From NCBI GenBank assembly GCA_013306675.1, contig JABLUY010000010.1, positions 246,487 to 310,486 on the forward strand: a stretch of DNA of 64,000 nt. The letters are read 5' to 3'. This document shows, piece after piece, positions 8,896-63,865 of the stretch. The stretch is from Thraustochytrium sp. TN22 (lineage: Eukaryota > Sar > Bigyra > Thraustochytrida > Thraustochytriidae). How positions within the stretch are numbered: position 1 is the first letter of the stretch; each line of letters starts with the position of its first letter. The notes under the pieces are model-generated. The model saw only the letters and a program-made list of their open reading frames with translations, did not search any database and was not told the DNA's origin. A program made the translations under genes and the position numbers.

Positions 8896-9670
8896 TTCAT
8901 TCTCCCTGCCCCGGCTGCCCTCTCAGCGGTTCTCGGATGACTAGCTCCCGCCCACTCCAGCCAGGCGCAGCCAGCGACTTGGCGCAACTTGGCACTCTTC
9001 CGGGTTCTTAGCTAGCCTAGCTAGACAGTGCAGTGCAGTGTGCACTGGCAGAGACAAGCAATCGAGCGAGCAAAAGTCCGAGTCCAAGAGAAGCACCCAG
9101 TCAGGGTCCGAAAGCGAGCGCCCAGTGTCTTCTCGTGGCGGTACGCGTTGTGACTAAGTTAGTAATCAGATGCGATGACTTTCCGCTAGCCGGCCCAGGC
9201 TTTGCTCCGACTCTTGACTCGGGGGTGACTTCGCTTGCGGCTTCCCCCAGCCAGCTCAAGCTCTCCCTCGGCCGGCCAGTGCTTGCACCGCGGCTCACAA
9301 AAGCTCTCGGGCTGCTGACATGGGAGAAACACAGTACGCTTCGGCTTAGTGGGGACAAAGCGCTCTCGCGGCGCGGCTAGTGGGGACAAAGCGCTCTCAT
9401 CTCCCCAAACCAAGTCAGGACACCGGGCCGCGTGCAGGCTGTTCGGGCCGGACGCACTCAGGCTGGCAGTGGCAGAGCTATCAATCAAGCAGCAACAGCA
9501 CTGGCAGGCTGACTCGCGAATGCGTGAATGAGACCGCCGGCAAACTCTTAACCCGCCGTCCCTCTGGCGCGGCGCGGCGGCGCGGCGGCAGGGCGCGGCG
9601 CGGGCACGGCGCGGCGCGGCGCGGGCGCGGCGCGGGCGCGGCGCGGCGCGGCGGCCGCCCAGCTACGATC
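8896..9670. other. Intergenic region upstream of the TIR-NACHT-WD40 gene
   Basis: About 775 bp. It holds an AGCTAG-type cluster near 9007-9024, GTGCAGTGCAG near 9030, a 21-bp duplicated element at 9348 and 9379, and a GGCGCGGCGC low-complexity stretch from ~9566 to 9660 just before the start codon. No gene is recognised. Confidence 0.5.
9348..9399. repeat. Direct repeat, 21 bp x 2
   Basis: TAGTGGGGACAAAGCGCTCTC occurs at 9348-9368 and again at 9379-9399, a 31-bp spacing. It lies ~300 bp upstream of the receptor gene and could be a duplicated regulatory site. Confidence 0.75.
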
Positions 9671-45100: not shown

Positions 45101-46559
45101 GCTCTCGCAGTCCATGCCGCTCGTCGTCCTCGGCGTCCTCATCCTCGTGCATCTTGGCTACACTGCCTACAAGCTGCGCCGCCGCTCCTCCAAGCGCGTG
45201 CGCCTCGGCTCGCACGTTGCGCGCCTCGTTGCCATCTACCTCATCATCGTCTACATTGCCTACATTGCCGTCACGCGCAAGGCGCTCGAGATCTTCGACT
45301 GCACCGAGCTTCCCGAGTCGGACGGCTACACGTACACCTCCTTTACCTCGCTCTCCTGCGATGGAGGCTCCCTCTGCCGCTGCGGCGACCCCGGCGGCGT
45401 CCAACAGCGCCTCGTCCCGCTCGCCGCCTTCTTCCTCATCGTCTACACCATCGGCTTTCCGGTCTTCGTGTACCTTTCCATCCGCCGCCATCGCGACGTG
45501 GTGGAGGAGGACCAGTACCTGCGCGCGCACGGCGTCGGCGACACGCGCGAGTCCGGCCCGCGCACCTATGATTTCCGCAAGTCCTTTTCCACGCTCTACG
45601 TCTCCTTCAAGCCCAGCAAGCAGACCTGGGTCGTCCTCATCATCCTGCGCAAGGCCTTCATCGCCTGCTGTGCGCTCCTCCTTCGGGCCAACGTCGTGGC
45701 CGTCCTCTCCATGATCATCCTCGTCCTCTTCGGCTCCTTTGTCCTCACCTCGCTTCACCGTCCGTACATGAGCAACGGCGAGCGCAGCGCCGTTCTCAAG
45801 GAGCTCGACGACCTTGCCACCAAGGGTCTCGACGACCCCAAGTACCAAAAGTACACCATCCTCCAGCGCCGCGTCACCGAATCCGTCAAGGTCCACCACG
45901 AGATGGAGCTCCGGGCTCAACACAACCAGCACGCCACGCGCTTCAACCTGGGCGACGATGAGGACAAGGCCTTGAGCCGCATGGCGCGCCGCAACCGCCG
46001 CCGCCGCAACGCCGCCGACTTCTTCTTCGACTACAACTCTGTCGAGCTCGCGCTCCTCGGCTCCGCCATTCTCATTTGCCTCGGCGGCATCCTCATTCAG
46101 TCCATGTACGGCGACTCCAACCTCGACGGCCAGCGCGGCATCCTCTCTGCCCTCCTGATCACCCTCATCATCCTCACCATCCTATACTACGCCACTGCCG
46201 TCCTCTCGGAGCTCTTCCCCACCATCTTCTCCAAGTACACCAAGTACCTGCAGCGCCGCAAGCCCGAGGACCACAAGGTCGAGGACCTCGACGAGGACCT
46301 CAGCCTCTCCACCAACCCCATTTTCCTCCCGGATCCTTCCGTGCGTGCCACCGACCCGCGCCTCCGCACCGAGTTTGACCAGCGCGAGCAGGAGCTTGAG
46401 CGCATCACCGCTCAGAACCAGTCCCTGCGCGATGAGCTCCGCCGCCAGAAGCAGGAGGACCAGCAGCGCAATGACGGCACCGACACCGGTCTCTTTGAAG
46501 AGGACAGCCGTGGCACCGGAGGCAAGCGCCGCCAGTTCTCTTTCCGCAAGCCACTTTAA
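33162..46559 (+). CDS. Giant multi-domain surface protein: C-type lectin, Cys-rich, cadherin, IPT/TIG, multi-pass C-terminus
   Basis: 4465 residues, intronless. It opens with a signal peptide (MAAQVLVLAAVLWSVAAGA). Residues ~27-163 form a C-type lectin domain with six Cys, a Ca-site-like EPDN and WHDQRCDD. Residues ~165-430 are Cys-rich ephrin-receptor/GCC2-GCC3-like repeats (CPAGTYRSTSGG, CPAGYYCEGG). About ten cadherin-like repeats follow, marked by DxND boundaries such as SDVNDAPAF (~641), TDINDAPVF (~782) and TDENDAPVF (~1407), up to ~1850. Some fifteen IPT/TIG domains, marked by ITGTNFG-type strands, run to ~3570. A second Cys-rich stretch precedes several membrane helices from ~3893 (VWMIGVAFALLIVGAIVAGY). 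The cytoplasmic tail has a coiled coil near 4410-4440. Adhesion or reception at the cell surface is inferred. Confidence 0.9.
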   Translation: MAAQVLVLAAVLWSVAAGAHGALPTVCEGSGYAAALGRCYRLKAPANALMWFEARDDCAAESSLLTSLHTAEETAHVASLCGTQSCWAGLYQLQGQTTAWQWLTEESYSYTEWASGEPDNGGVAEDGYSSTGQDCMSVETDGLWHDQRCDDTRAYVCMKAALCPAGSYLSQAYAPWASQNADCTLCPAGTYRSTSGGVGLDACTPCPAGTVGAAGRASVCTEACPQGYYCLSGTVKDASAAAGGPQPCPMGTYGWTTGLSLAAHCRQCDPGFYCPSEGSTTATAAPCTAGRCGFAGQTDGSCSESCPAGYYCEGGDACPAATKYDGSSPDVATVAKECGGTGVYCPAGSTAPTDVDTGYYTIGASATTRDSQALCEPGYYCSGGQRLKCPAGYYRADYGGTSSAQCSPCETGYLCPTLGDYVNTSPQSVNCWESALIDLLKADDPATYDISGLRNIMVYCPAASGRPVVASDGYYTTPNNSANNNNRQAQEACTSEYVCYLGGRYSLATWGTSACRSSDGAAATVGEMESASAVVYDTLGANIYANAPEPAASYDIVYSLSNLAYIDSSDASCTPNTAAKNGNVFVVDSATGVLSLADDSLNYEVCLPELDIRYTLNVVAEVSFEGTLLSTITCLVTVTVSDVNDAPAFYDFSASEDVELPSGDTANIPVYYRVIEEDVMQNVPVAACSGTSCGGFVSPSSTPELLVSDEDYAAILTYRIVNETSDMHFKIDPCSGLLSARGARQIDYATQNYYEFLISVTDDGNGDSLSTITSYALVKIWVTDINDAPVFLYTETGCNLPDSNSSDVGEGGSGEELMFMLSISEAAGENDAVALTDLVGLPLDASQPITIDDVPMTPAGQDGLLPLVSDADGDALTFQIVTNDADAFKIDSADGITLRASLAGAQAFDFESSKRYYYLEIEVRDGRQGVASAQLCIEITDANDAPSFASSDKTFYILENQAGHVCLEPTGECTVGAGVSATDQDGDSGDVITFALTETHGGLFSIDETTGLITVASPGLDFEDGPTSLSGGTNRGYVMGVTATSGGGSLPGGDAVSTTYVTVFVVNVNEPPVISAETLLQDWTFPGNWPAGVVLPFEIAVDDPDNVDIVVNNELLEKQTHTYTNVDGYGGNSYFQVATRESTEVPGTYVGRVTIVQSPAAVTDNALVDFRVRVLDNGAPDIGEVFYDVDVTLADVNDAPSFSVSQHVLTAAENSDFVSGTINLASDPDADDASLLTYEVVEGNGAIFFEIESVVTGGFKVKKREFYAGTSNEVVLNYELSTKEWTLTVRVSDLGPSTSIGALCDSSASAAVRAAQCGSGARCVSDRCHQVCFDATPMDGGSPDVLASDQQAAIPTNGSTWYMCPYAYDWFKSDRSGTKYVEHTTELSGVMTDPFVESDTINVIVQITDENDAPVFTNCSRLAFSVLSNMQTSDQTVASLDLLESLSYDQDSLNSGSVVDFAYVLTSINASNYFTFDDALGLVYQAQTDGTIAEGEVFALNLEVQDPSDSALSDSCDFYVTVVDINTAPDVDMTMLAARLNSVSEDAASGFVVVSSLNDAALLQDPDDGETWTFSTTTNSYFDIDEDTGQITVGASTYSYEASSSHSYDLVVRVRDSKGADGVVTITIPITDVNESPRFVTNTVTISVLETIAQDAVVDEVSNRVSDPDTYATTAPGDWHTLTYSIQSCGPTSACPFALDAATGTLTVGDASLIDYESGITAFTVRVRATDPLNLYAETVYTIRITDVNEPPQFVSSLTVEVTEGDDLAGSAIFDMQAVVTDPDAGDEPYNLIYTLLSGTDNFEIINGQLFGKNDFVVDFEDSQQFQVGVRVTDSGSNTIENDITVNVANVNDVTITAVSPNAASAFACDGVTEVTITGTNFGLKVPTAAHQNELTVTYTNRKTGIQYTCANARFQTPGDNSVLLCDAPIGIGADFDWIVTVAVSGGLIAGDASPTFRTSALSYSPPIITAVSGATALSTAGSQTVTLSGTCFGTQADYAGNGGFDTTPDTSVRYCTASSGTCYTPSSCSMLASGDLTCTTVPGLGADLSWVVRIAGTESDAFSAGSHGLPSFSALSVTEFPSDGDLPIVITGTNFGSTQDAPDLVEALLLFDGGSSGASAAASATYALLDCAVTSDYVEITCTGIEPGMGKDMQLFITFDGLTNVNNTVLTLSYEVPVLTGFRGEAVTEGSTVGGQQIKIDGSGFGAACGSLKSSAASSAETESCPLMTVTYTRGSTRVSDATPIVYTPDCVVRNDALVVCVTEPGSGAGHTWSFNFGGHAGVVAPAGTTTAYARPTVGTYQGDGAKDASTVGGQLVILRGSNFGPYNGAVVEAFYGPEDNPDEFMADDAGTRIQCTVVTAHEVMHCYTVAGAGDELSWTVFVDGQQSRVETTSYGDPIISGLSLTTFNVDGGDALVITGVNFGPEEYSDEFLESVTYGPEVNPEAYNITSTCAVVSHTSITCETIAGIGEDLFWTLTVKGQTYSSTTAVAGSSYTPLALRSDPTTAGNKISTEGNYKMYIDVDGLPVCDPQAIITILFGAQTFSVGSVFDLSQSSVTPVTLATHCASDTSAAQRRVSFTVPALATYDRSPEVGLKVTSKRFSGTFYSSTYEFEYGAPVLSSVYAEPTDNGNGELRVTLAGQNFCANTQCCQTYMNGEAVVEETHTHTTITLTAAVDGAVVQVRCGSRYSEELFVATTNPFVYKALDQDGVSVADRVYETDQSAGTEIIDLFGINFGADTPSVKVGDFAAELISHETVSCSASGAPSLGESGQCHKTRIRVPSGAGRSNGIVLTTFGGLESTADSSYEFVVYRAPAILTWALENDATTAPTNGGMLLTVTGTNFGAASTGVLELYQRTTVADEFFVFETTFTLVGLFSSCTWSHSQVVCPVPPGEGVGLEILLTAADQDTRSNAAAAGLSPSLSYSAPTISGISLTASRTVGGDTLTITGTNFGRPYLASCADLLQEDCAPLRPRITIGSLECTGGANTHDEITCIIPASQGTGLSVVVNVRSQRATASSLFSYLPPEIASFTPLVAPTSALSSSTGAPLYLTLTGDNFGNDDLELRFVSLDGTINLLVAQRDSSANITSAGYRIATYSHTSFSVRLPPYRGKDLQIVLTVAGQSVTATELFSYNAPAVGSVAVMGGDGTFTDVSSGATGQINVNIFPTSYVRGSAATDLGSGGRRARRALATGARLLRAPNDTVVCEVSSTYRGYAWITRTYDVYESGAFLRETEVFANEYCDGDAAVLVSSAGGIEEHAELAREDAGCAVPLLIISENVAMTPLTLEGVGFLANASCCGDDSFWAVGVEQDCSCSALAVNRALFTVGDRYSMYLVNDLQELYVSLPVDSAEELASQTAFNFPRWGPTFISLDERSLEDTASGPTSGCFEFEPYSDYAARRNEAVLLYGTAEDVYRKCLVKALMTLTGDNFSNQLANATNDLQITFLDLTTGAEYLAATTSSVGDHNEYCTESDGCSHDHTAITFQIPPGSGINLVILLKVGNQVTYAEVVGSNATAAEDRYVRFNYLAPSLTSATPGTLQGDSYEFADAAGGESVEFRGANFGGVYANTTIYIDGRICPQSTWRSPDEDIDDGLPFLSCTPDTDVVGPRNLFVCVSDQASRQWAAQRDPSLLLEADRVRAASETSVLSDEDQLQIDQLHDLVGSYFNTRCKSYSTSSGTVLGTYGGLYQVCADCPSGALCEKGDAPYTDPYSAPGYYRLDVDVWRDDGITVTERAELRCPTERWDRDSISDYPAAVLEETCSDYVACQPAEACDGANECSDAYRYAYDKCVAVRGAAGYNNTCRTVQDPFTGIYKGVDADCNPDPSSECSPNSPENCATCVVSFDGEYNAGDEAPIGTCTCAMPQRCALCTLNTHYRLNNRCQECPDNVWMIGVAFALLIVGAIVAGYYFNKHNLNLALLAIGIDFAQVLSVFSAVNLRWPAAFERFLSFFSFLSLNIDIIGIECVVPTFEYETKWWLSQSMPLVVLGVLILVHLGYTAYKLRRRSSKRVRLGSHVARLVAIYLIIVYIAYIAVTRKALEIFDCTELPESDGYTYTSFTSLSCDGGSLCRCGDPGGVQQRLVPLAAFFLIVYTIGFPVFVYLSIRRHRDVVEEDQYLRAHGVGDTRESGPRTYDFRKSFSTLYVSFKPSKQTWVVLIILRKAFIACCALLLRANVVAVLSMIILVLFGSFVLTSLHRPYMSNGERSAVLKELDDLATKGLDDPKYQKYTILQRRVTESVKVHHEMELRAQHNQHATRFNLGDDEDKALSRMARRNRRRRNAADFFFDYNSVELALLGSAILICLGGILIQSMYGDSNLDGQRGILSALLITLIILTILYYATAVLSELFPTIFSKYTKYLQRRKPEDHKVEDLDEDLSLSTNPIFLPDPSVRATDPRLRTEFDQREQELERITAQNQSLRDELRRQKQEDQQRNDGTDTGLFEEDSRGTGGKRRQFSFRKPL

Positions 46560-47207: not shown

Positions 47208-50200
47208 ATGCGCTGGTGCGAGTCCGCTACGCTGGCCGCTCAGGCCATCCGGGACGGCGAGAACGAAGTTGGCCTCACAAGCCGCAGCAACTCGGTATGG
47301 GGCGCGCGCACGCTTGCCGCCGCGCTGCTCGGCAATTGTACCCTTGTCAGGCTATCGTACGTGCGCGCTTGTGGCTGCAGAGCCATTGAGCAGGTCAAAC
47401 TGATACACATGCATTGAGTCTCTCTCCCCCAGGCTCGCCGACAACTGGATGGGCGAAGCAGGCACGCAGAGGCTTGCCGAGGCCCTTCGAGCCAATGGCA
47501 CGCTCCGTGAGCTCAAGTACGTCATGCGAGACCCGCCAGTGGCGTGCATGCATGCAGCTGAGCTGCCTGCCTGCCTGCCTGCCTGCCTGCCAAAAAGGAC
47601 TGCAGCGACTGACCGAGATTTTGGCGTCCGCGCTTCCGCTTTTTGTTTTGCTGCTTCGTCAGTCTAGAGGACAATGACGTGGGCCCCAGGGGTGCCAAGG
47701 CGCTCGCACAGGCGCTGCAGACCTGCCAAGCAATAGAAGATCTCAAGTACGTCCTGGGCCTGGTCGCCATCGCATTCGTCCGCCATGCAGGTCAAACGTC
47801 TCACGCACATTTGCCGTGTACGCTGCAGCCTCGACTTCAATAAGCTGGGCGCGCGCGGCGTCGTCGCACTCGGCAAGGCGCTGCACGGCGACGCGCTCGG
47901 TCTCAAGACGCTCCGGTACGTGACATCAGGAGGTGCGGCGCCTTTGTGAAAGTGACTCTGCCTGACCGTGACGTTATTTATAGCCTCCGCGGCAACCACA
48001 TGGGAAACCAAGGAACCGCCGCGCTCGCTGAGGCGCTGAAAGCCAATACGGCGCTCACGGAGCTCGAGTGCGTTCAAACCAACGACTGGGCCAGCGAACA
48101 AATGGGCTCGTGCGCTTCGCCAGCCCGTCGCTGTCGATCTCACAATCAGGCTCACTGACCTTTCTCGGCGTGCCATCGCGCTTGTGTGCGTGCAGCCTGC
48201 AGCAGAACGCGATTGGCGACCAGGGCGCCGAGGCGCTCGCAACGATGCTACAGAGCAACGCCTTCTTGCGCAAGCTCAAGTACGTGCACACCTTGTTCAG
48301 TTGTGTCGAGACGAGACGAGACGAGACGAGACGAGACGAGAAACGTTTGGCTAATGCAATTCTGCAGCCTCGGCAACAACGAGATTGGGCCTCACGGCGC
48401 CCAGGCCCTTGGCGGTGCGCTTGAGGCCAACCAGGCACTCACACACCTCAGCCTCACCACCAATGACATTGGCAACGTGGGCGCGCAGAGGCTCGCATGC
48501 GCGCTGGGAACAAATGAAAGCCTCGTGCGGCTCGAGTACGTTTACGTGCCCGCTCCCTGTCTTTACGACCTTGAGCGCCGCAGACTGACTCAGACTGTGA
48601 GAATGGAAAGCGTGGAATGGAATGACGTTTCAGACCCAGGCATTATCGCAACTCTACGGGACGCGCTGGCACGTAACAGCAGCGCGAACGCGCTCGACGG
48701 GGTCCCTTGTGACATGCCGACCTGGCAACGAGCTGTTCAAAGCGTCCTCGACGGATGCGAGCGACGCCCGTGGGGGCGCGTCAAGATCACGGTCGTCGGC
48801 AACAGCGCCATGGGGAAGTCCTCCACGGTGCGCTCGCTGCTGGGCAAGGACGCCGTTCTGGAGCACCTCTCCACCGAGATGGCGCACATCCAGCGCACAC
48901 GCGCGGAGGACTGGGCCGTCGTCCCGGACGACCGCGGCGAATTTGAGGCCCTCGTGCGCACGGCCGCCGCGCGCCTCCTCCGGTCCAAGGGGCACAGCTA
49001 CCCGGGCAATCGGGCGCGGGGCTCGGTCGGCCGGCGACTGTCGCGAGCCCTGCGCGGGTCTCGCGGGCGTCGCGACGCGCAGGTGACCATGGCAGCCAAG
49101 CCGCTCGACCCGCAGCCGGAGAGCCCCTTCTCGGCGCATCGACCGCTTGTCCCGCGCGACGAGGCAGCTCGTAGATTCGCTCTCACGGAGCAGGATCTGA
49201 GCCGTCTGCGCGGCGAAGACGGCGAGCACGATGCTCTGAGCTTCACGATTTGGGACCACGGCGGCCAGGAGGTATTTTACGCGCTGCATCACGTCTTCCT
49301 CACGGACCTGGGCCTGTACCTGGTGGTCTTTGACATGCGCGAAGTCGTGGACAAGGCGAAGCGGCCGGCCGCCATGGATAAGCTTCGGTTCTGGCTCGGC
49401 AGCATCGCACTGCACGCGCCAAACGCTCCCATCTTCCTCGTCGGCACCTTTCGCGACCAAGTGCACGATCTGCGCGCCGTGGACCGCGCGCTGCGCAAGC
49501 ACCTGCGTCCCGCCTCGCTGCGCAGACTCGTGCGTCCGCCCGCAGGCGCCATGGCGCATCTCTTCTTCCCACTCGACAATGTCAGCCCAGACCCGGACCG
49601 CGCTGCGCTGCTTCGAGCCGCCGTGGTCGCCACGGCCGCCGCGCAGCCCTACGTCCACGAGTCCGTGCCGCTCGCGTGGATCAAGGTCCTTGACGACCTC
49701 CTGGACGATGGCCAGCCATTTGTGCCGTACGACCATCTCCTGGGCATCGCCGCCGACTACGACCGCTCTCCGCAGGACGTGGCCAGCATGCTCCGTTTCT
49801 TCCACGGACTCGGCGTCCTCGTGCACCTCGATGCATCTGAGGACCTCAAGCGCCTCGTCGTCGTCGATCCGCAGTGGCTCCTCGACCAGCTCGCGCAGGT
49901 TATTTGTGCCGACACCCACGCTGATCGCATTGCCGCCGCCTTGCAGCCACACATGCTGCCGGCCTTTACTCGCCTGCGCCGCGATTCCATCGCCTCGCGC
50001 CAGCTCCTTGATGAGCTCTGGCCGGCGGACCGCTCACAGCGCAACTTCCTCGTCGCCTTCATGAGCGCCAACGCGTTGCTCTGCCGCTGGCCCCCCACGC
50101 CCGGTGCTCAAGACCGGGAGGATCAGCTCTTCCTCGTCACGGGACTCCTCGCCCTGGCGCCGGCAGCCCTCGACCTCGGCGACTTTTGCCGTGGGCTTAC

Positions 50201-50783
50201 CTGCGAGCTCGACTTTGGTGCGCTCTCGCTACCCAACGGAGTCTTCCACCGCCTCGTCGCGCAGTGCGCCGCCCTCGCGCCTGCGACACCCGATGCCTGC
50301 ACGCTTGCACGCGAGCGCGCTCTTCTTCGTCTCGAGGATGGCCTTTTCTTGCTCGAGGCCGATCATCACGTCCTGCGCATCTGTGCCAGCCACGACGCCC
50401 CGCGGCCCATGCCGTTGCTCCACCAGGTGCTCACGCTCCTTCGCGAGCAGCTCGCTGTCCACTTTTCCCGCCTCCAGTGGGAGCTCCTCCTGATCAGCCC
50501 CGTCACGGGCGCAGCCGTGCTCTACGCCGCGCTTCACGACGTGTGGGCGCCCGACGCTGACCGCCGTCTTCAAACACACGTCCAGGTTGGCGACGCCAAG
50601 CACCTCACTGTGAGTCGCCCGCATCGTCGTGCTCCACGCCACGTCCAGCTCCGCGACTTTGATCCCTTTTTCTTGGCGGAGTCTGTCTTCTCGATGATGA
50701 TCACCATCATCATCATCATCATCACGCCGACGACGCTCATGTACCTTTTCGCAAGTGATCGAAGCTTTTGGTTTTTAGCTTAG
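47208..50783 (+). CDS. LRR-ROCO (Roc-COR) GTPase, eight exons
   Basis: Exons: 47208-47356, 47433-47516, 47663-47746, 47829-47915, 47984-48067, 48196-48279, 48368-48535 and 48611-50783. Together they give 970 residues. All introns are GT-AG in phase 2, six beginning GTACGT and one GTGCGT. Each short exon is 84 nt (one 87, one 168) and codes one or two ribonuclease-inhibitor-type LRRs (LADNWMGEAGTQRLAEALRA). Exon 8 holds a Ras-of-complex GTPase: P-loop VGNSAMGKSS (Gly310 to Ser317), switch DHGGQEVFYALHHVFL near 461 and FLVGTFRDQ as G4. A COR-like region (RFFHGLGVLVHLD, DPQWLLDQLAQVI) follows. No kinase domain is seen. The last ~25 residues include an Ile run from an ATC repeat, so the exact C-terminus is uncertain. 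Upstream exons could also exist. Confidence 0.87.
48308..48341. repeat. (ACGAG)n pentanucleotide repeat in ROCO intron 6
   Basis: About six ACGAG units within intron 48280-48367. Intron 2 also holds a (CTGC)n run at ~47565-47592. Confidence 0.85.
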
Positions 50784-53148: not shown

Positions 53149-56100
53149 ATGAGCATCGGCGAAGAGGTAGTGCGCCTTGGCGAAGAACAACCTGATCGCA
53201 GGCTCATCGTGTGGCTCGATGACAAGGGCAAGGAGGCCGCCACGCTCTCGCGCGGCGAGCTGGTCACCAAGGCGCTCGGCGTCGCGCACATGATGGAGCT
53301 CACCTGGGGAGTGCATCGCGGCGACATGGTGCTATTGGTTTTCTTCCCCGGCACGGACTTTATCGTCGCCATGATGGCCTGCCTGCTCGGCGGCTTCGTT
53401 GCCGTGCCTGTGTACCCGCCGGACCCGAACAGCCCCAAGGCGGGCCTTCTCAAGATGGCCAAGGCGGTCGAGGCGACCACGCTCAAGCACGTGCTCTCGC
53501 ATACTAGTTTCTTGCGCGCCCGTCGCCTCATGATTGGCGCAAGCAAGTTCCCACAGGGCCTCAAGTGGCACGACATGCGCAAGGCCAAGGCCGCGCCCCA
53601 CATGGGGATGCCGCCGCCGTCGCCGCCCGAGTCCGTCGCCTTTGTGCAGTTCTCCAGCGGTAGCACAGGCGACCCCAAGGGTGTCTGCGTCACGCACGGG
53701 AATCTCAACGCCAACCTTGCCAGCATCAAGGCCGCCATGCACGTCAGCGAAGAGACCGTCGGCGTGACCTGGGTGCCCTTCTACCATGACATGGGCTTGG
53801 TGGGCGCCATCCTCACGACCATTAACGCCGGCGCTCTCATGGTCGCCATGTCGCCCATGTCATTTTTGCGCAGCCCGTTCGTGTGGCTGCGAGCCATCTC
53901 CGACTACGGCGGCACCATGACGTGCGCGCCGAACTTCGCGTACGAGCTGGCGGCACGCAAGATCTCGGCCAAGCAGCTCGCGCAGCTCGACTTGTCCAGC
54001 TGCACGCGCTACTCGAACGGTGCGGAGCCCGTGCGATGGGAGACGCTGGAGCGCTTCGTGGATGCCTTCCAAGGGCAGGGCGTGCGCTTGGACTACATGG
54101 ACCCCTTCTACGGCATCGCGGAGAACGTCGTACTACTGTCCACGCACCAGCCCCCACGCGTGCCGCTCGTCATTCGCCTTCGAAGCGACTTTGCGCGCCT
54201 GCCTGGCTCGCGCATTGAGCTGGCCGCCGAGGACGACTCCGATGCACTCGCACTCGTGGGCAACGGCGAGCCCGGCCCAAGCGTCACCATTCGGGTCGTC
54301 CACCCGGACACGCGTCAGCCCGTGCCGCGCGACCATGTTGGCGAGCTCTGGGTCACCGGCCCATCCAAGGTCAGCACGTACTTCGGGCGGCCAGACGTCT
54401 CCAAGGACCAGCTCAACGCGGCGCTCGCCAAGCCGGACGGCAAGACGTATCTGCGCACGGGCGACATGGGCTTCATCCACCAGGGTGAGATTTTTGTGTG
54501 CGGGCGCATCAAGGACATGCTCATCGTGCGCGGGCGCAACATCTTCCCGCAGGACGTGGAGGCAACTGTTGACGCCTCTAGCGCCGACATCCGGCCCGGC
54601 TGCTGCGCCACCTTCTGCCTTGAGGGCTCCGAGGACGTCGTGGTGGTCGCCGAGGTTCGCGATGCCAAACAAAAAAACGCGGCGAACCTTGCCGAAGCCG
54701 TGCGCGCAGCCGTTGCGGGCGACCACGGGTTTTCGCCGCTCGCCGTGGTGCTCATTAAGCCGCGCACCGTGCCCAAGACCACCAGCGGCAAGATCCGACG
54801 CCGCGCGACGCGCGATGCCTATATGCAGGGCCAACTTGCTGTCGTCGCTCAGAGCGGCGGTTCGCAGGCGGCTGATGTCAAGGCGACGGACTTGGCGCCG
54901 CTGTGGCAGCTCATTAACACGGTCGCGACGCTAGATCTGCACACCGATCCGGCACAAATGGAGCTCCTCATGGACGAGTTCCACCTAGATTCCAGCACGC
55001 TCGGCATGGAGGGTCTAGAGGCGTACTTGGAGCAGCCTGTGGCCCTCTCGCCGTTCCTGGAGCGCCTCCGTAGCGCGCTGGAGGCCATGCCCCTTTACGC
55101 GGGATTTCTCGTGCAACTGCTTCCGGCTGACACCGAGGAGCTCCTCCGGCAGTCCGGCGACTCCCCGCGCGGGCTGCTGAGCTTCTTGCTGCTCGTGGAC
55201 TTTTTTGTGGACGCCCTGGGCGACCCGGCGGTCTTTGAGGCGGTCATGCCGCAGGTGGTGGAGCGGATTATGGGAACGTACACGGGCATCGACACCCGAA
55301 CATGGTTCGGCATCGTCAAGCCTGGTTTTCTGGTGCACTGCGCTCGCCGATGCCTGCAAGCCAGCTCCCGCGAAGAGGGAACGTGGGACTTTTGGCCAAG
55401 CATGCTGGGCCTCAATGTGCTGGTGGCGGCAGCCGCCGAGGTTTTCGACGCACCTTCGGCGACGAGGCCAACGCCTTCGGCCGTTCTGGGCGTGGCTCTC
55501 AACGGAGTCTGCATGGCCGAGTCTGCTTCAAAGATCGCTCCCCGCGTCGCCGTGGAGGCATACTGCCTGTGGAACCTCACCTTCTTGGAGAGCAATCGAC
55601 CTAACAGGGTCGCGGCCCAGGACCGCGCCTTCCAGCTCATCCTCCTCGCACCCAACGTCCTGCGCGCCACGTCGGTGTCCGAGCTCGCCTTTCGAAGGGT
55701 CATGTCTCTGCTGCTCGTGATCGGGGCGGAGTCTAGCCACGTCTTTCGCGACACATGGACCCTAGACGTGGCCTTGTTGGATGGAAGCAAGATGCAAAAG
55801 GCCTGTTTGCGCGTCGTGCAGGATCTTGGCGTGCCGTATGCCGAAGATGCGGCGAGGAATCTAGGTCTGCGCTATGGGCCCCTGGAGATGGCCGCGACCG
55901 CAGGGTCTGTCATTGCGCGCTGCGACCAGGTGCTCACCACCAGCCTCGCCGAGAATGTCGCAGAGGATCTTTTCGACGACGTGTGGACCGACTTCCAGGA
56001 GCAGACCGCGACCGTCAGCGTCGGGACCACGCCCGAGGAGAGATTGGACTGGCTACTGCGCAGCGCCAGACGCAGCGTTGGTCATGCCGTCCTCGGCCCG

Positions 56101-58422
56101 GATGATGACCTCTTTGAGAGCGGCATGTCTTCCGCGGCCATGGTGGAGGTTGCGAGCCAAGTCGAGCTCTTGATCACCTCCGGCGGCGCTGTTGAAGACG
56201 CCAGCCTGGACCCGGAGTTTATCGCTCAGCACCGCACGGTGCGCGCGCTGGCTGCGGCCGCGGAGATCAAGCGCGCCGATGCGGTGTGCCTTGAGAACCT
56301 CAACGACCTGCAAAGACCGGCCCTGCCCGCGGCGCTGGCAGGCGTGCTGCAGTTTCTCGGTGTCTGGCTCATCTTCTTCGAGATGGCCGCCGCCATTCTG
56401 CCGGCCTATCACTACGGCTACTGGGTGCGATTTGAGAGCGGCCTTGGCGAACCCTGGGTCTACTACCGCGTGGCGGGCTCCGTCACAATGTTCGGCCTCC
56501 TGGTGCCGTTTGTCATTCCGGTCTGGGTGCTCAGCTTTTCGGTGCTGGTCGTGCTCACCAAGTGGCTCGTCGTGGGTCGCCGGACGCCGTGCAAGGTGGA
56601 GATCAATTCGCTGCCGTACCTGCGCTGGTGGCTCGTGGACCGCCTGACACACATGTGGGAGGGCACAGTGGGTCGATGGATCGTCAACACACCCATGCTG
56701 AACGTCTTCTACATTTGCATGGGCGGCAGCGTTGCGCTCTCGGCCAAGATCAAGCTGCTTCTGCGCGACCTGGACCTTGTGACCATCGGGCCTAGTGCCG
56801 TCATCAAGGGCGATCTCATGTGCCGCGCCTTTGACGCCAGGGAGCGCACCCTGCGCTTCCGCCGCGTGCGCGTCGGTGCGGCCAGCGAGCTGCGGTCGGG
56901 ATCCATCGTCATGTTGGGCGCCAACATCGGCCGCGGCGCGCAGGTTGCCGCGCTCGACGTTGTGCGCGAGGGCTCCCAGGTCACGAAAGGCGATCTGCTT
57001 GCAGATCTCCCTCCGACCTCGGCGTGTGCCGGGGCATTCTTGGAGCTCGTGGCCAAGTCCTCGATCATCTGCACCATTTTGGTGATCTTCTTTAATGTCT
57101 CGGTGGTGAACGTACTCTTGTGGAACGCCTGCGGCTACCCAGAGGGCTTTCGCTACGCGGACCTCGTGTACTGGACGAGCTCGTACTTTGTCACGGCCTG
57201 CTGCATGTCCTTTGTCGCGGTCGCGCTCAAGTGGATTCTGGTGGGTCGCCTGCGCGCGGGCCCGGTTGCGCCCAGCACGCTTCGCGGGTTGCGACACTGG
57301 GCGGCCGACTACCTTTGGTCACTGCTCTGGGCGACCTGGGTGGTCTACTTTGAGGAGTCGCGCTCCGTCCTGCCATACCTGCGCGCGCTGGGCGCCTCGC
57401 TCGGCCGCTACGTTTTCATCTCCAACGCCTCGTGGATTTCTCCGTCCAACGCCGACATGATCGTCATGAATGACGGCTCCATGGCGGGTCTCATCTTCGT
57501 CGAGACCGAGGCCAGCGGCCAGCGTGGCCAGGTGCAGATTGGCACGCGATGCGAGGTCGGCCTCTTTGCGGTGATCGGCTTTGGCAGCACGATGGAGCCG
57601 CAGTCGAGCCTTGCCACACTCAGCACCTTGATGCGGGGCGAGGTGCTGCCTTCGGGGCACCGCAAGTTTCGCGGCGCCACCTTTCCTGCCGCCGATCCCG
57701 ACGAAGGCGACCTCACTCCGCCCTGGAGCCTTGCTGAGGAGGCTGCGCTGCTCGTTTTTCGCGCAGTCTTTCTCGCCACCATCGTCGCCTCCTTCATCCC
57801 GGCCTACGAGTATGCCAACTTTGTGCTCTTTAACGCTGGCATGCAGCGCGACGTGGCCATTCTTCTCCTCGCCGTCAGCTTCTGGCTGGCGCTCTTTGGC
57901 CTGGCCATTGCACAGCGCCTCCTCGCACTCGTGGTTTTCGGCCCATGGCACGACCTGAGCGTCATTCCCACACGCGTCAGCATGTACTGCTCGTACCAGC
58001 TCTTCACAGCGCTGCTCGAGAAGCTCCTGCTTCCCGCGCTGCACGGCACGCCCATGTACAACATGCACGCGCGATTCATGGGCGCCCGCGTGGGGCCGGG
58101 CGCCATTCTCAACTCCAGCTTTGTGCGCGAGCACCAGCTCCTCTCGATCGGCGAGGGCGCCATTGTAGACGCCGGCGCCTTCCTCGCTGCGCACCAGTTC
58201 ACCAACGGTGGCTTCCAGGTTCGGCCCTCGCACGTCAGTGCTTATGCGCTGATGCAGACCGGCTCCGTCTGTCTCTCGGACTGCAGCGTGCCACCGCAGT
58301 CGATTCTCCCACCACGCGCCTTTGCACAGCAGGTCTCGCGCACCCGCCACGTCGAGGCAACGTCCGCCAAGGTCGCCGACACGCTTGCCTTTGACATGCC
58401 GCAGGGCAATGACCTCGTCTGA
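53149..58422 (+). CDS. FAAL-like adenylation / carrier / left-handed beta-helix membrane protein (NRPS-like)
   Basis: 1757 residues from the ATG at 53149. Residues 1 to ~590 are an AMP-forming domain closest to fatty-acyl-AMP ligases: VAVPVYPPDPNSP, FVQFSSGSTGDPKG near 165, YLRTGDMGFIHQGE near 434, KDMLIVRGRNIFPQD. A ~370-residue all-helical segment of armadillo-like look follows. A carrier-protein-like domain lies near 960-1040 (DDLFESGMSSAAMVEV, the Ser being the possible phosphopantetheine site). From ~1064 several membrane helices alternate with two hexapeptide/left-handed beta-helix blocks (~1210-1290 and ~1640-1740). This end resembles the terminal module of Pls/PosA-type NRPS such as poly-lysine synthetase. 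It may load an acyl group on the carrier and condense it at the membrane; the product is unknown. Confidence 0.83.
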   Translation: MSIGEEVVRLGEEQPDRRLIVWLDDKGKEAATLSRGELVTKALGVAHMMELTWGVHRGDMVLLVFFPGTDFIVAMMACLLGGFVAVPVYPPDPNSPKAGLLKMAKAVEATTLKHVLSHTSFLRARRLMIGASKFPQGLKWHDMRKAKAAPHMGMPPPSPPESVAFVQFSSGSTGDPKGVCVTHGNLNANLASIKAAMHVSEETVGVTWVPFYHDMGLVGAILTTINAGALMVAMSPMSFLRSPFVWLRAISDYGGTMTCAPNFAYELAARKISAKQLAQLDLSSCTRYSNGAEPVRWETLERFVDAFQGQGVRLDYMDPFYGIAENVVLLSTHQPPRVPLVIRLRSDFARLPGSRIELAAEDDSDALALVGNGEPGPSVTIRVVHPDTRQPVPRDHVGELWVTGPSKVSTYFGRPDVSKDQLNAALAKPDGKTYLRTGDMGFIHQGEIFVCGRIKDMLIVRGRNIFPQDVEATVDASSADIRPGCCATFCLEGSEDVVVVAEVRDAKQKNAANLAEAVRAAVAGDHGFSPLAVVLIKPRTVPKTTSGKIRRRATRDAYMQGQLAVVAQSGGSQAADVKATDLAPLWQLINTVATLDLHTDPAQMELLMDEFHLDSSTLGMEGLEAYLEQPVALSPFLERLRSALEAMPLYAGFLVQLLPADTEELLRQSGDSPRGLLSFLLLVDFFVDALGDPAVFEAVMPQVVERIMGTYTGIDTRTWFGIVKPGFLVHCARRCLQASSREEGTWDFWPSMLGLNVLVAAAAEVFDAPSATRPTPSAVLGVALNGVCMAESASKIAPRVAVEAYCLWNLTFLESNRPNRVAAQDRAFQLILLAPNVLRATSVSELAFRRVMSLLLVIGAESSHVFRDTWTLDVALLDGSKMQKACLRVVQDLGVPYAEDAARNLGLRYGPLEMAATAGSVIARCDQVLTTSLAENVAEDLFDDVWTDFQEQTATVSVGTTPEERLDWLLRSARRSVGHAVLGPDDDLFESGMSSAAMVEVASQVELLITSGGAVEDASLDPEFIAQHRTVRALAAAAEIKRADAVCLENLNDLQRPALPAALAGVLQFLGVWLIFFEMAAAILPAYHYGYWVRFESGLGEPWVYYRVAGSVTMFGLLVPFVIPVWVLSFSVLVVLTKWLVVGRRTPCKVEINSLPYLRWWLVDRLTHMWEGTVGRWIVNTPMLNVFYICMGGSVALSAKIKLLLRDLDLVTIGPSAVIKGDLMCRAFDARERTLRFRRVRVGAASELRSGSIVMLGANIGRGAQVAALDVVREGSQVTKGDLLADLPPTSACAGAFLELVAKSSIICTILVIFFNVSVVNVLLWNACGYPEGFRYADLVYWTSSYFVTACCMSFVAVALKWILVGRLRAGPVAPSTLRGLRHWAADYLWSLLWATWVVYFEESRSVLPYLRALGASLGRYVFISNASWISPSNADMIVMNDGSMAGLIFVETEASGQRGQVQIGTRCEVGLFAVIGFGSTMEPQSSLATLSTLMRGEVLPSGHRKFRGATFPAADPDEGDLTPPWSLAEEAALLVFRAVFLATIVASFIPAYEYANFVLFNAGMQRDVAILLLAVSFWLALFGLAIAQRLLALVVFGPWHDLSVIPTRVSMYCSYQLFTALLEKLLLPALHGTPMYNMHARFMGARVGPGAILNSSFVREHQLLSIGEGAIVDAGAFLAAHQFTNGGFQVRPSHVSAYALMQTGSVCLSDCSVPPQSILPPRAFAQQVSRTRHVEATSAKVADTLAFDMPQGNDLV

Positions 58423-59240
58423 TTGATGGCTGCAAGCAAGAAAACAAGGACATGATCTTTTTTGCAAAACTGATGGCCATCGCGCGGTGGCGTCGCGACG
58501 TCGCTCAAGTTGTCAGCGCGCGCGGTAGAGCCCCTTTCCGCATGTAGCTTTTGTCGTGCAAATTGCGCTTCTGACAAGTTCGGACGTCAGTCGCCATTCT
58601 GTGCGAGCTGATTCGAGCCCAGACGCGCGCCTTTGGAGCGCCAGCTCGCGTTCGCCCACCGCGACCACCTCTTGCACAGCCAGCCGGCTCTCTCCAGCCG
58701 CTCCAGAGGACAGCGGCGGCGTTGCGTTGTCGCGCCCAAGCCCGTGCCTCCGCACACGTGCGCTGCAACAGGCTTGACTACGCACTCGCAGCTGGCGCCG
58801 GCCAAACGCCCCGCACATGCCGTCGCTGAGGCCTTTTCTGGCTCAGCACACGTTTTACAAAAAGCGCAGGCCAAGTTTCTCGTCGCCGGCCTCTGCAAAA
58901 CGCACGGCCGGTTTGACGATGCCCGCGGGCTCTCGCAAGACACTGTCGTCGTGCTGCGCACCTCGCTGGGCCACTACCACTTGAAGGCCGCCGCCCGCAC
59001 AAGAGCCTCGCCCTTTTCTGATCTTTTGCATGGCGCGCTCACCAAATGCGCTCAGCGTCCTTCACAATGGTTCCTCTGTGCATGCTTGCAACTTCTGCTA
59101 GCAAGCGGAGTCGCAGCCGAGCACTTGTGGGCTGGGCGCACATTGGAAGCGAGGGCTGGTGTGCGCGACGCAGGGCTCGCGAATGACTTGGTGTGAAAAG
59201 AGCTGGTCGTGCATTTTTAATTAAAAACTTGTACCCAAAG
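58423..59240. other. Spacer between convergent genes
   Basis: About 820 bp of mixed composition between the FAAL-like stop and the LRR-array gene stop. Short frames on both strands show no protein-like pattern. AATTTTTAATTAAAAACTTG near 59212-59230 is a local AT-rich patch beside the minus-strand stop and may be its 3' processing region. Confidence 0.45.
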
Positions 59241-62200
59241 TCAGGTTGTCGTCGGGCGCATGACTGCACGCGCTTCATGAGCGTCCTGGACCTCGTCCTC
59301 GAGTTTGTGCAGGTACGGCGCAAGCAGATGGACTTGAGCGTGAAGCGCCTTGCAGCGCGCACGGAGTGCCGCGATCCGGGCGGTGTGGGCAGCGATCATG
59401 CTCTGCTTCGTGGGCGTGGTGGCAACCTCGGCGGTCGCCGCGGGCGGAGCAAGAGGCGCCAGGCTGAGCCCGCTGGGGCTGATCGTGGGCAAGCCTCGCT
59501 GGCGCGAAAGCTGGATGCAGCAGCGGAGTTCCTGTGCTTGGCGTGCGAGCTTCTTGATGCGGTCGCGCTGCGAGGCGAGCGTCTTGTTGAGCGGCAGCTC
59601 TCTGTTCATTGCATCCCGAAGCTCGGCAGAAGGACCACTGGGATTGTGTTGGGGTCGAATCACTTGTCAGTCGCTCGTTCCGTCCCGTTTTTTTTCTTTT
59701 GAAAACTCACGTGACAGCGAGATCCGTCAGCTTGCACTTGGTGCTCTCCAACGCGCGCGCCAGCGCGCCAGCGCCCGCGGAGCCGATGTTGTTGCTGTGC
59801 GCTCCAGCGCCCGCGGAGCGGATGTTGTTGCTGCTGTTCAGGCTGCGTTTCGGCAAGGCGAGTCGTCAGCTTGACGTGATTTTCAAGCCAGGCCAGGCCA
59901 GGCCAGGCCAGGCCTGCCTGCACGCGGCGTCCAAGCTGGCTTTGATGAAGCAGGCCTGCCGTGCTTGACGAGCTGGCCGCCCCCATGCGTAATCGTCGCA
60001 TGAGTTGGCCCGCTGGCCCGTGCTTAAAGAGGCTGCCGGACGGAAGAAGGAAACGGGAGGAACTCACGAAAGCCATGTCAGCGTGCACTGGCCGCTCTCC
60101 AGCGCTCGCGCCAGCGCTTCAGCGCCCGCGTCGCCGATTCTGTTGTCGGGAAGGCTGCATTTTCGCAAGGCGCGTCGTCAGCTTCACATGATTCTCCAGG
60201 CCAGGCCTGTGATCATCCCATGAGATGGGCCGCGGGCCCGTGCTTTCAGAGGCTGCCGGACGGGAGAAGGGAAGCAAGGAACTCACCGCAGCGCAGTTAG
60301 CATGCACTGACCGCTCTCCAGCGCTCGCGCCAGCGCTTCAGCGCCCGCGCCGCCGATGTTGCTGTTGGGAATGCTGCGTGTTGGCAAGACGCGTCGTCAG
60401 CCAAACATGCTCCTCCAGATCAGGCCAAGCAAGGCCTGAGCAGGCCAGGCCAGGCTTGGCTGTACGTGTCGTCCAAGAGCCCGATGGTTTACTACTGCTA
60501 CGAAGCAGGCCTGCCGTGCCTGACGAGTTGGCCGCGCCCATGCGTAATCATCACATGAGATGGACTGCTGGCCCGTGCTTTTAGAGCGACGGGAGAAGGA
60601 AACGAGGAACTCACTTGAGCGTCGTCAGCGTGCACAGGCCGCTCTCCAGCGCTCGCGCCAGCGCTTCAGCGCCCGCGTCGCCAATGTTGCTGTTCCCAAG
60701 GCTGCGTTTTGGCAGGACAAGGCGTCAGCTTGACATTACCCTCCAGGCCAGGCCAAACCAGGTCAGGCCTGTCTTCATGTGTCGTCCAAGAGCCCGGTGG
60801 CTGGCTGCAAGGAAGCAGGCTTGCCGTGCCTGACGAGCTGGCCGCGCGAAATCATCACATGAGATGCACCGCTGGCCCGTGCTTTCAGAGGCTACCGGAC
60901 TGGAAAAGGAAACGGGAGGAACTCACTTGAGCGTCGTCAGCGTGCACTGGCCGCTCTCCAGCGCTCGCGCCAGCGCTTCAGCGCCCGAGGAGCCAATCTC
61001 GTTGTTGAAAAGGCTGCGTTCGGGCAAGGCGCGTCGTCAGCTTGACATGGTCTTCAAGGCCAGACCAGGCCAGGTCAGGCCAGCCTGCTGGGCAGAGGCT
61101 GCCTGACGGGAGAAGGAAACGAGCAACTCACTTGAGCGCCGTCAGCGTGCACGAGCCGCTCTCCAGCGCTCGCGCTAGCGCTTCAGCGCCCGCGTCGCCG
61201 ATTCTGTTGCCGGGAAGGCTGCGTTTTGAGAAAGAGAGCCGTCAGCTTGTCATGATCCTCCAGGCCAGGCCAGGCGAAGCAGGCCTGCTCGGCCCTGTCG
61301 CGCCTGACGAGCTCGCGGCCTCCATGCGAATTCATCGCATGGAACGGACTGCCGGCCCTTGCTCTCACAGGCCGCCATACAGGACAAGGAAACACGAGGA
61401 ACTCACTACAGCGTCGTCAGCGTGCACTGGCCGCTCTCCAGCGCTCGCGCCAGCGCTTGAGCGCCCGCGGGGCCGACTCTATTGCTGTCTAGGCTGCATT
61501 TTAGGGAGACAAGTCGTCAGCTTGACACGAATTCTTCAGGCCAGGCCAGGCCAGGCCTGCCTGCACGTGTCTTCCAGGAGCCTAAAGCAGGCCTGCCGTG
61601 CCTGACGAGCTGACCGCGCACATGCGTAATCATCGCATGAGATGAACCGCTCGCCCGTGCTTGCAGGAGCTGCTGGACGAGGGAAACAAAGATACTCACA
61701 ACAGCGTCGTCAGCTTGCACTGGCCGCTCTCCAGCGCTCGCGCCAGCGCTTCGGCGCCCGCGGAGCCGACTATATTGCTATCAAGGCTGCATTTGGAAGA
61801 GACAAGTCGTCAGCTTGGAACAAATTCTCCAGGCCAGGCCAGGCCTGCCCTAGACGAGAGAAGGAAACGAGGAACTCACTCCAGCGTCGTCAGCGTACAC
61901 CGGCCGCTCTCCAGCGCTCGCGCCAGCGCCTCGGCGCCCAAGGAGCCAATCACGTTGTTGTAAAGACTTCGTTTGGGTAAGACGCGACGTCAGCTCGACA
62001 TGATCCTCCAGGCCTGCATGCACGTGCCGTCCAAGAGCCCGGTGGCTGGCTGCTACGAAGCAGGCCTGCCGTGCCTGACGAGCCGGCCGCGCCCATGCGT
62101 AGTTATCGCATGAGAGGGACCGCTGGCCCATGCCCTCAGAGGCTGCCGGCCGGGAGAAGGAAACGAGAGGAACTCACTCCAACGTCGTCAGCGTGCACTG

Positions 62201-63135
62201 GCCGCTCTCCAGCGCTCGCGCCAGCGCTTCGGCGCCCGCGTCGCCGATGTTGTTGTTCCCAAGGCTGCGTTGTAGCAGGGCAAGTCGTGAGCTTGACATT
62301 ACCCTCGAGGCCAGACCAAGCCTGCCTCCAAGAGTCGTCCAAGAGCCCGGTGGCTGGCTGCTAGGAAGCAGGCCTCCCGTGCCTGACGAGCTACTCGCAC
62401 CCATGTGTAATTATCACATCAGATGGACCACGGGCCCATGCTGCCAGAGGCTGCCGGACGGGTGGAGGAAACGAGAGAAACTCACTGCAGCGTCGTCAGC
62501 GTACACCGGCCGCTCTCCAGCGTCCGCGCCAGCGCTTCAGCACCCGCGTCGCCCATGTTATTGTTGCCGAGGCTGTATATTGGCACGGCAGGTCATCAGC
62601 TTGACATGATCCTCCATGCCATGCCAGGCCCGCCTGGACGTTTTGTCCAAGGGCCTGATGGCTGACTTTTACGAAGCAAGCCTGTCGTGCCTGACGCGCT
62701 AGCCGCGCCCATGCGTAACCACCGCATTGGATGGACCGCTGGCCCGTGCTTTCAAAGGCTGACGGACAGGAGAAGGAAGCGAGGAACTCACGTGAGCGTC
62801 GTCAGCCTGCACTGGCCGCTCTCCAGGGCTCGCGCCAGTGCTTCAGCGCCCAAAGAACCGATGTGGTAGCGAGTAAGGCTGCGCTTTGGCAAGGCCGGTT
62901 GTCAGCTCGATATCAGCGTGTCCTCCAAGAGCCCGGCGGCTGGCCGCTTCCAAGCAGGCCTGCCACACCTCACGAGCTGGCTGCGCCCATGCGCGAGCTT
63001 GAAATCTTGGTTGGCGTGGCAGGCTCTTAGGTCACTTTGCACCACCAGCAGGACCATCACGTACCTGAGTTCTGTCTCGCCGTTTTCGATCTTGCGAATG
63101 GCGGCCTCCACGATGGCGCGCACCCGACCGTCCAT
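59241..63135 (-). CDS. LRR-array protein with coiled-coil tail, 14 exons
   Basis: Exons, read on the minus strand: 63135-63065; eleven 87-nt exons at 62878-62792, 62572-62486, 62264-62178, 61966-61880, 61786-61700, 61493-61407, 61218-61132, 61013-60927, 60701-60615, 60373-60287 and 60154-60068; then 59842-59711 and 59637-59241. All introns are phase 2 and GT-AG. The donor is GTACGT in intron 1 and GTGAGT in the others. The joined frame is open for 518 residues. Exon 1 codes MDGRVRAIVEAAIRKIENG. Each 87-nt exon codes one 29-residue ribonuclease-inhibitor-type LRR of consensus LGNNxIGDAGAEALARALES. The last exon (~131 residues) is helical, with Lys/Arg-rich and coiled-coil segments (NKTLASQRDRIKKLARQAQ). 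The LRR face should bind a protein partner; function is not recognised. Confidence 0.85.
60068..62878. repeat. Tandem array of exon-plus-intron units (11 copies, ~180-330 bp each)
   Basis: The 87-bp LRR exons recur at start-to-start spacings of about 306, 308, 298, 180, 293, 275, 205, 312, 328 and 219 bp. Introns share landmarks, read on the + strand: GAGGAACTCAC at the donor, AAGGCTGCGTTT at the acceptor, CCAGGCCAGGCC runs, GAGCCCGGTGGCTGGCTGC, CTGACGAGCTGGCCGCGCCC, a hairpin ATGCG/CGCAT, and GGCTGCCGGACGGGAGAAGG. Shorter units lack middle parts. The duplication unit is therefore exon and intron together. Confidence 0.92.
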
Positions 63136-63865
63136 GATGATAAAGCAAGGTTCCGCACTCAGGGCCCGTGTCGAGGGCAGAGAGGTTGTTGCGGAGGTAG
63201 CAGCGGAGTCAGCGCACCCGAGCGGCCACCGTCTGTCGCGTGGACGTGGCCGCTGAGCACCGCTGCACTCCGGCCGAGCGTCTGTCGATGGGCAAGTTGG
63301 ACCGCGCCGCGGTCTGGCCGCCTTTAGAAGCCGCGCCTCGCAGCGCGCTGAGTGCCGGCGCGGGCCGGCCGCAGGGGCGCAGCGACGCAAGCCGGCGCCC
63401 GCAGCGCTGTGCGTGGTCGCTCCAAACGCCGCGCGTCGCAAGCCGCCGCGTTTCCGTTCTGCCGCCGCCAAGTCGAATCTGAGCTCCTGCAGAGAAGTAG
63501 CCTGCCGCGGGCGCACGCACGCGGGCGCCGCTTCGCGGGCTAGCGCAGGGGCGGGGGTGCGGCACTGGCGCCATGGTGTAGCCGCTGCGCACGGCGTGCA
63601 GGCAGGCGCGCGCGCGGAGGACAAGAACTAGCTAGACAACGACGACGACGACGTAGGCTCGCGCCGCTCGATGCTGCTCCTCGCTCGCTGCGCGCAGCCG
63701 CGGCTGCACGGGCGCAGAGAGCTCGTGCGGAGAACGTGATGTACGTGGCGACGCGCAGCACTGCGGACGGCGACGCGACCGGCGACGGCCAGCAAGGTTC
63801 TGAGCAAGGCCAAGGGCGGCCCCTGCCGAGCAAGGCGGAGCAGCTTGCCCAGCGCCGCGATTGGG
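63136..63865. promoter_or_regulatory. Upstream region of the LRR-array gene, possibly divergent
   Basis: About 730 bp of GC-rich sequence upstream of the LRR-array start, with AACTAGCTAGAC near 63627 and a GACGACGACGACG run near 63640. Minus-strand frames read through into the LRR start but are Arg/Ala/Pro-rich and unconvincing. Confidence 0.4.

Follow-up and report, generated by a model that had tools for sequence, protein, structure and literature searches.

What kind of protein is encoded by a gene whose leucine-rich repeats (LRRs) lie one by one on exons of a single length, and how did these exons multiply? The question is raised by a minus-strand gene of Thraustochytrium sp. TN22 located at positions 63135 to 59241 of the DNA stretch analysed here (the window), which is the final 64 kb of contig C11 (246487–310486) in a genome of 37.9 Mb and 453 contigs. 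Our preferred reading of the sequence, to which we assign a probability of roughly 0.6, is that of an intact gene for an intracellular recognition protein, whose LRRs form an exon array with a selected concave face and which belongs to a receptor-like class with a helical tail and no TIR domain. An initial annotation, made from the sequence alone, had proposed an expandable recognition module built by repeated duplication of an exon-plus-intron unit.

In the 14-exon model the LRR-array gene has an uninterrupted reading frame between its start and stop codons and encodes 518 amino acids. A first exon of 71 nt is followed by eleven exons of 87 nt, one of 132 nt and the terminal exon, and all 13 introns of this predicted model are in phase 2. 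The 87-nt exons extend from 62792–62878 down to 60068–60154 on the minus strand, with AG before and GTGAGT after each, and every one of them translates into 28 residues and a split codon, i.e. one 29-residue RI-type LRR. A search of both strands of the 64-kb window for AG, 87 nt open in phase 2 and GTGAGT returned eleven matches, all of which are LRR exons 1 to 11. Pattern search and translation thus recovered all eleven consecutive one-repeat exons of the initial annotation (11/11), and the ends of its 14-exon model (63135 and 59241) and the phase-2 symmetry of the junctions (13/13) were reproduced as a sequence model. The features are listed below; the LRR exons derive from the exon pattern search and translation.

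63065–63135, minus strand: exon 1, start codon and N-terminal helix-like stretch with phase-2 end (gene model, related N-termini, join in paralogue C451)
62792–62878, minus strand: LRR exon 1, 87 nt
62486–62572, minus strand: LRR exon 2, 87 nt
62178–62264, minus strand: LRR exon 3, 87 nt
61880–61966, minus strand: LRR exon 4, 87 nt
61700–61786, minus strand: LRR exon 5, 87 nt
61407–61493, minus strand: LRR exon 6, 87 nt
61132–61218, minus strand: LRR exon 7, 87 nt
60927–61013, minus strand: LRR exon 8, 87 nt
60615–60701, minus strand: LRR exon 9, 87 nt
60287–60373, minus strand: LRR exon 10, 87 nt
60068–60154, minus strand: LRR exon 11, 87 nt
60155–62791, minus strand: region with the ten homologous inter-unit introns between LRR exons 1 and 11 (intron alignment)
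59711–59842, minus strand: exon 13 of 14, 132 nt, last LRR with internal 36-nt duplication (gene model, period-36 repeat)
59241–59637, minus strand: terminal exon, C-terminal helical-hairpin module and stop (gene model, genome matches, AlphaFold2)

The gene product reaches 179.3 bits with Pfam LRR_6 (family cut-off 23.4), which identifies its repeats as RI-type LRRs, and RI and NLRP chains are among its sequence matches in the PDB. Matches to STAS and HEM4 scored below their Pfam cut-offs and were discarded. The period-36 repeat inside exon 13 was detected at 59763–59833. A related N-terminus occurs at 19 places genome-wide (E up to 1). The paralogue on C45 reads LRRs and tail in a single frame without introns there, and the one on C451 reads N-terminus and LRRs in a single frame without an intron at the join. 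Because these intron-free paralogues read parts of the same layout, they support the splice model at the sequence level.

Differences between the units are concentrated at a few sites. The entropy by exon position in the gene is highest at the split codon (2.65), followed by positions 2 (2.41), 5 (2.30) and 3 (1.87) and then by positions 8, 22 and 24; residues 10 to 21 are near fixed. Positions 2, 3 and 5 and the split codon are the exposed x positions of xLxxNx, which in the LRR fold lie on the concave face. Four selected concave sites in brown-algal LRRs back this placement (Teng 2024, PMC11378527). A second variable set (8, 9, 12, 22, 24 and 27) was picked after the entropies had been seen and was not used as a test. 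The ten units with a downstream inter-unit intron give 45 pairs, and rates were compared across these. The concave class comprised codon bases 1 and 2 of exon positions 2, 3 and 5 and the structural class the same bases of 18 positions; fourfold sites were counted outside positions 2, 3 and 5, and intervals were obtained by bootstrap over units. Differences between units amounted to 0.184 in the introns, 0.204 at fourfold sites, 0.596 in the concave class and 0.027 in the structural class, corresponding to a concave/fourfold ratio of 2.93 (1.84–5.31) and a structural/intron ratio of 0.14 (0.06–0.22). The earlier statement that changes cluster on the ligand face was thus upheld, the concave rate lying above both introns and fourfold sites. 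A dN/dS-type check, run on proportions of nonsynonymous (pN) and synonymous (pS) differences, agreed with the diversifying evolution proposed there: concave pN over overall pS was 3.88, 3.36, 3.10, 2.02, 2.12 and 1.49 in six overlapping samplings (all intervals above 1) and 2.14 (1.24–2.71) in four pairs of this gene. These samplings drew disjoint pairs from 118 units according to how alike their introns were, and counted the split codon as concave; pS exceeded the intron distance, partly because the pairs had been selected for close introns. Judged by rate comparison, not by codon site models, the concave face appears to be under diversification while the scaffold is kept.

The introns between the units are related as well. 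The ten inter-unit introns are 93–241 nt long and share 71–89% pairwise identity, with a mean of 82% as compared to 66% for shuffled introns (highest 79%), in agreement with the sequence sharing described by the initial annotation. All ten contain a branch-point-like motif similar to CTGAC (CTGAC, CTAAC, CTCAC or CTGAT), which starts 27 nt before the 3′ end, at a constant distance from the acceptor. With introns at C379, C321 and C86, intron 3 shares 92% identity (positions 1–170 of 211); its matches inside the own gene reach 77–84%. Mobile introners were considered and rejected. The 89 intron-3 matches, judged by contig and not one by one, are distributed over 13 contigs, and there is no sign of the intron moving alone because every one of these contigs also has family LRR or N-terminal-exon matches.

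The window gene is one member of a family of arrays. A profile built from the family's own members was run over 24 stretches fetched from the genome: 157 exons reached scores above 18 and three candidates scores of 5 to 18, with all others below −35. At least 157 87-nt exons, present in 21 of the 24 stretches, form at least 24 arrays; both counts are lower bounds since the genome search scored part of its candidates. Five exons scoring 18–40 were left out of the entropies and later comparisons (152 of 157 kept), L034, being the near-copy of the window gene, was left out of most comparisons and the second array of L039 was left out of the rates. The concave/fourfold ratio is 1.8–15.8 in L037, L039, L040, L041 and L042, and L036 has zero fourfold changes. 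Intron distances of L042, L043, L047, L048, L052 and L053 were not used, as they may be no more than a product of lenient alignment between unlike sequences. Fresh expansion is visible in some arrays. The exons of L035 units 2 to 5 are identical and their introns show at most one difference in 228 sites, and L046 holds a run of units without any difference. Such runs of identical or near-identical copies offer a direct view of exon plus intron as the copied unit, as had been claimed. In L040 and L036, neighbouring units with near-identical introns differ at several bases inside concave codons, a pattern that suggests short-tract exchange followed by selection, with point changes as an alternative.

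The proposal that the window gene was built by repeated duplication holds in part: the copying of units is real, but the units of this gene do not look like a private series. A best-match test included 54 introns from 10 loci (near-copy on contig C359 left out, identity taken over the longer intron). For six of the gene's ten inter-unit introns the best match lies at another locus, for the other four inside the gene, and therefore units seem to have been exchanged between loci. In the intron tree, the seven full-length window introns are ungrouped (6 changes; as low in 150 of 500 shuffles). When exon and intron are combined, the window units cluster beyond chance (4 changes; 1 of 500 shuffles), not as a single clade. 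Over the 54 units, exon likeness and downstream-intron likeness correlate with r 0.57, a value reached in none of 2000 permutations. Taken together, a role beside local duplication seems to fall to inter-locus exchange, or to arrays that had already grown when the loci split.

The near-copy of the gene on contig C359 has 11 units as well. It differs at 3 of 1557 coding bases, all three amino-acid changing (I→F, I→K, R→W), at 3 of 2338 intron bases and at 55 of 3514 flanking bases. Identity per 250-base bin is 97.6–100% over about 6.5 kb (window positions 56750–63250) and 61–90% further upstream (53250–56000). We read C359 as a second locus that would have recently shared this segment through exchange or duplication; alternatively, it may be a divergent haplotype, i.e. 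the other allele of the same locus.

The tails of the arrays link the window gene to receptor-like proteins. Its C-terminal module has 27 genome matches, its own included, and was predicted by AlphaFold2 from the single sequence to form helices at residues 2–42 and 73–122 with a loose linker (mean predicted local distance difference test score, pLDDT, 77.6). No convincing solved relative of this helical tail was found, the best match (E 0.0022) being a designed helical repeat. COR-A, the mark of ROCO proteins, was found at 46 genome places, 42 of them above the Pfam cut-off. Nine of the 24 arrays run into COR-A on the same strand within 3 kb, at 1.06–1.46 kb downstream in eight cases and 2.97 kb in C38, compared to a chance expectation of about 0.003 COR-A per 5 kb of one strand. 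All nine then reach TIR about 1 kb further, and their COR-A and TIR matches have the same open-frame length. Ten arrays, including the window gene and C359, first meet the helical module within 0.6 kb, and five meet neither tail, two of which stop within 70 nt of a contig end. Roc, COR-A and TIR_2 were assigned by Pfam to a single frame in three of nine scanned frames (L039, L040 and L042); the other six are truncated where the fetched stretches end, and one of these is the C265 frame, which was not counted with an array. In L035, L038 and L039 the frame reads through into the preceding intron, and in our reading the usual acceptor lies before a last LRR-like stretch. The N-terminal exon precedes arrays of both tail classes. 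The Pfam scan of the 518-residue window product detected neither ROC-COR nor NACHT or NB-ARC. Because the gene shares its cassettes and N-terminus with LRR-ROC-COR-TIR genes, it would represent the helical-tail class of that family and is most likely a TIR-less sibling of these receptor-like genes. On C265 (21505–29147, minus strand), a ROC-COR frame, for which no TIR match was listed, lies 2.9 kb beyond a helical-tail array, so that genes of the two classes adjoin; the same holds for C86 and C387. One TIR stretch has 82 matches in the 37.9-Mb genome.

According to our preferred reading, the product would consist of a short N-terminal stretch, eleven one-exon RI-type LRRs, a partly duplicated twelfth and the helical-hairpin tail. 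Each 87-nt phase-2 exon together with its intron would serve as a cassette, open to copying, loss or exchange without breaking the frame. The similar introns would supply the homology for unequal crossing-over and conversion, within the gene and across loci; units could thereby be gained or lost by crossing-over and passed between loci by conversion or exchange, and the reading frame would be kept because all junctions are in phase 2. Selection would then favour new binding faces at the split codon and exon positions 2, 3 and 5 while maintaining the scaffold. The protein might act as a receptor or co-receptor, or else as a decoy, for proteins that are non-self or self-markers, perhaps in partnership with TIR members of the family. 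Such a recognition role is indirectly supported by the sibling arrays that run into ROC-COR-TIR frames.

Several observations weigh against this picture. The approximately unbiased (AU) tests do not reject one clade for the gene's units (p 0.152 and 0.197), and within the gene exon and downstream-intron likeness are uncorrelated (r 0.13; 0.32 of permutations as high). The C359 near-copy has the same unit number and just three exon changes, too few to test. The concave/fourfold ratio is 1.07–1.39 in L035, L038, L043, L046, L047, L048, L052 and L053, and among these eight only L052 has an interval excluding 1 (1.03–1.55); saturation may hide a concave excess in diverged arrays. Moreover, introns and fourfold sites may be non-neutral in this GC-rich genome.

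Surface positions vary across LRR families in general, and axonemal LRR proteins and RanGAP are among the PDB sequence matches of the product. Both facts would suit an ordinary structural or regulatory RI-type LRR protein with an array that arose by unequal crossing-over and surface positions that are merely unconstrained. Unconstrained positions should equal the fourfold sites and introns of the same units, but the concave class differs about three times as much, and the ROC-COR-TIR frames downstream of sibling arrays do not fit either; we regard this explanation as unlikely. Similarly improbable is that arrays without ROC-COR, rather than being receptors themselves, keep units in store, with recombination resupplying the ROC-COR-TIR genes. 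The same is proposed for LRR-only sequences of kelp in Teng 2024 (PMC11378527), and introns and exons are indeed common to the window gene and the ROCO-linked arrays. A store, however, would need neither a frame open from start to stop nor a tail and an N-terminus that recur widely, and its structural codons would not be expected to differ at 0.14 of the intron rate. Concerted evolution alone, in which conversion homogenises introns and scaffold and the concave codons look fast by escaping it, finds some support in L040 and L036, where close units with near-identical introns change several concave-codon bases together in a manner resembling short-tract exchange. Conversion should hit linked sites alike, though, so that something must keep the concave codons different, and the fourfold sites of the same exons show no excess in the window gene. 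This is the least credible of the three explanations. An extension of our preferred reading to a germline repertoire, in which one pool of LRR cassettes is exchanged among unlinked loci and plugged into ROC-COR-TIR or helical-tail genes with selection of new faces, is tentative, and we would rather bet against it than for it in this full form.

A diversity-generating retroelement was ruled out, since changes between close units are not limited to adenines. A separate list, merged by contig and including the contig-end fragments C17, C419 and C205, comprised 24 arrays and array fragments; of these, 19 are no more than 10 kb from a contig end, against an expectation of 7.9, and none of 20000 placements gave as many. 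As a sign of subtelomeric location this excess is weakened because the arrays themselves break assemblies, and three-copy TTAGGG or TTTAGGG gave no match in a genome search that may skip simple repeats. Other genes in the window comprise a STAND receptor-like gene, in which one long frame combines TIR_2, NPHP3_N (NACHT-like) and WD40 repeats (9380–14380, plus strand); an LRR-ROC-COR gene in a single frame, some 8.5 kb away from the array gene (48186–50783, plus strand); two near-identical 401-residue frames 2296 bases apart, apparently a recent tandem duplication (25445–26650 and 27741–28946, minus strand); and a 4465-residue frame with C-type lectin, cadherin and TIG domains (33162–46559, plus strand). 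Elsewhere in the genome (G000:C124:29160–32300), a 3044-residue frame contains ten tandem acyl-carrier domains with a 327-nt step, nine of them with equal score. Tandem acyl-carrier domains are a hallmark of thraustochytrid polyunsaturated fatty acid (PUFA) synthase; the run is PUFA-synthase-like and itself a homogenised array.

Exon arrays of this kind are known from other protists. Brown-algal LRR-ROCO genes, including those of Zambounis 2012 as cited in Teng 2024, have 72-bp phase-2 LRR exons, four selected concave sites and LRR-only arrays (PMC11378527). Both systems belong to stramenopiles and have in common one LRR per phase-2 exon, exon arrays, changes at concave positions and LRR-only arrays beside LRR-ROC-COR genes. 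The window gene differs by its 87-nt RI-type exons and its helical tail without ROC-COR, and its siblings carry TIR after ROC-COR. Concave selection is indicated by rate comparison here and by PAML site models in the algal study. The thraustochytrid introns can be aligned across unlinked contigs; the comparison with the algae covers exons. Tetrahymena possesses tens of thousands of 90-bp phase-2 LRR exons in thousands of genes, which are characterised by association with LINE (long interspersed nuclear element)-like elements and, in the view of the authors, may have evolved once only (PMC6564038). Tandem exons of one exact length, a strong phase-2 bias, exon shuffling and exon-plus-intron repeat units of a few hundred bp with homologous introns are shared with the present arrays; the length of 87 nt, the number of arrays (at least 24 versus thousands of genes) and the ROC-COR-TIR link are not. 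In vertebrate NLRs, LRR units are old and diverged. Human NLR exons, e.g. of NLRP3, are frame-preserving LRR modules (PMC6642158). The window gene resembles these intracellular receptors in its RI-type LRRs on frame-preserving exons, but has no NACHT, and its units are near-copies with alignable introns. With RI-type LRR proteins in general (Pfam LRR_6) it shares the repeat class; the exon array, N-terminal exon and tail set it apart. A fusion of ROCO and TIR is not new either, given the TPR-ROCO-TIR proteins of Chondrus (PMC11378527), and LRR proteins are reported to be relatively few in Thraustochytrium aureum (PMC8917795). Literature searches on thraustochytrid and Aurantiochytrium LRRs, LRR exons and ROCO with TIR, in which subscription papers are thinly covered, listed no account of the family. 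Thus, the kind is already known from brown-algal ROCO genes and Tetrahymena arrays, and the 87-nt RI-type version with a TIR link and a helical tail appears to be a new variant.

An immune reading is plausible in view of the ROC-COR-TIR siblings and of the TIR-NACHT-like-WD40 and LRR-ROC-COR genes in the window, and the gene probably belongs to an evolving repertoire for recognition, perhaps of an immune kind. The germline repertoire in its full form, if true, would be one more protist example of modular LRR exon arrays, assembled separately from the others and tied to a TIR output. The single origin proposed for same-length phase-2 LRR exons in Tetrahymena is already weakened by the brown algae, and the thraustochytrid genome adds another exon length, with RI-type repeats. 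As the introns are alignable between loci, cassette exchange and binding-face selection become directly measurable. Finally, immunity in protists is poorly known, and the ROC-COR-TIR link points to a concrete output there.

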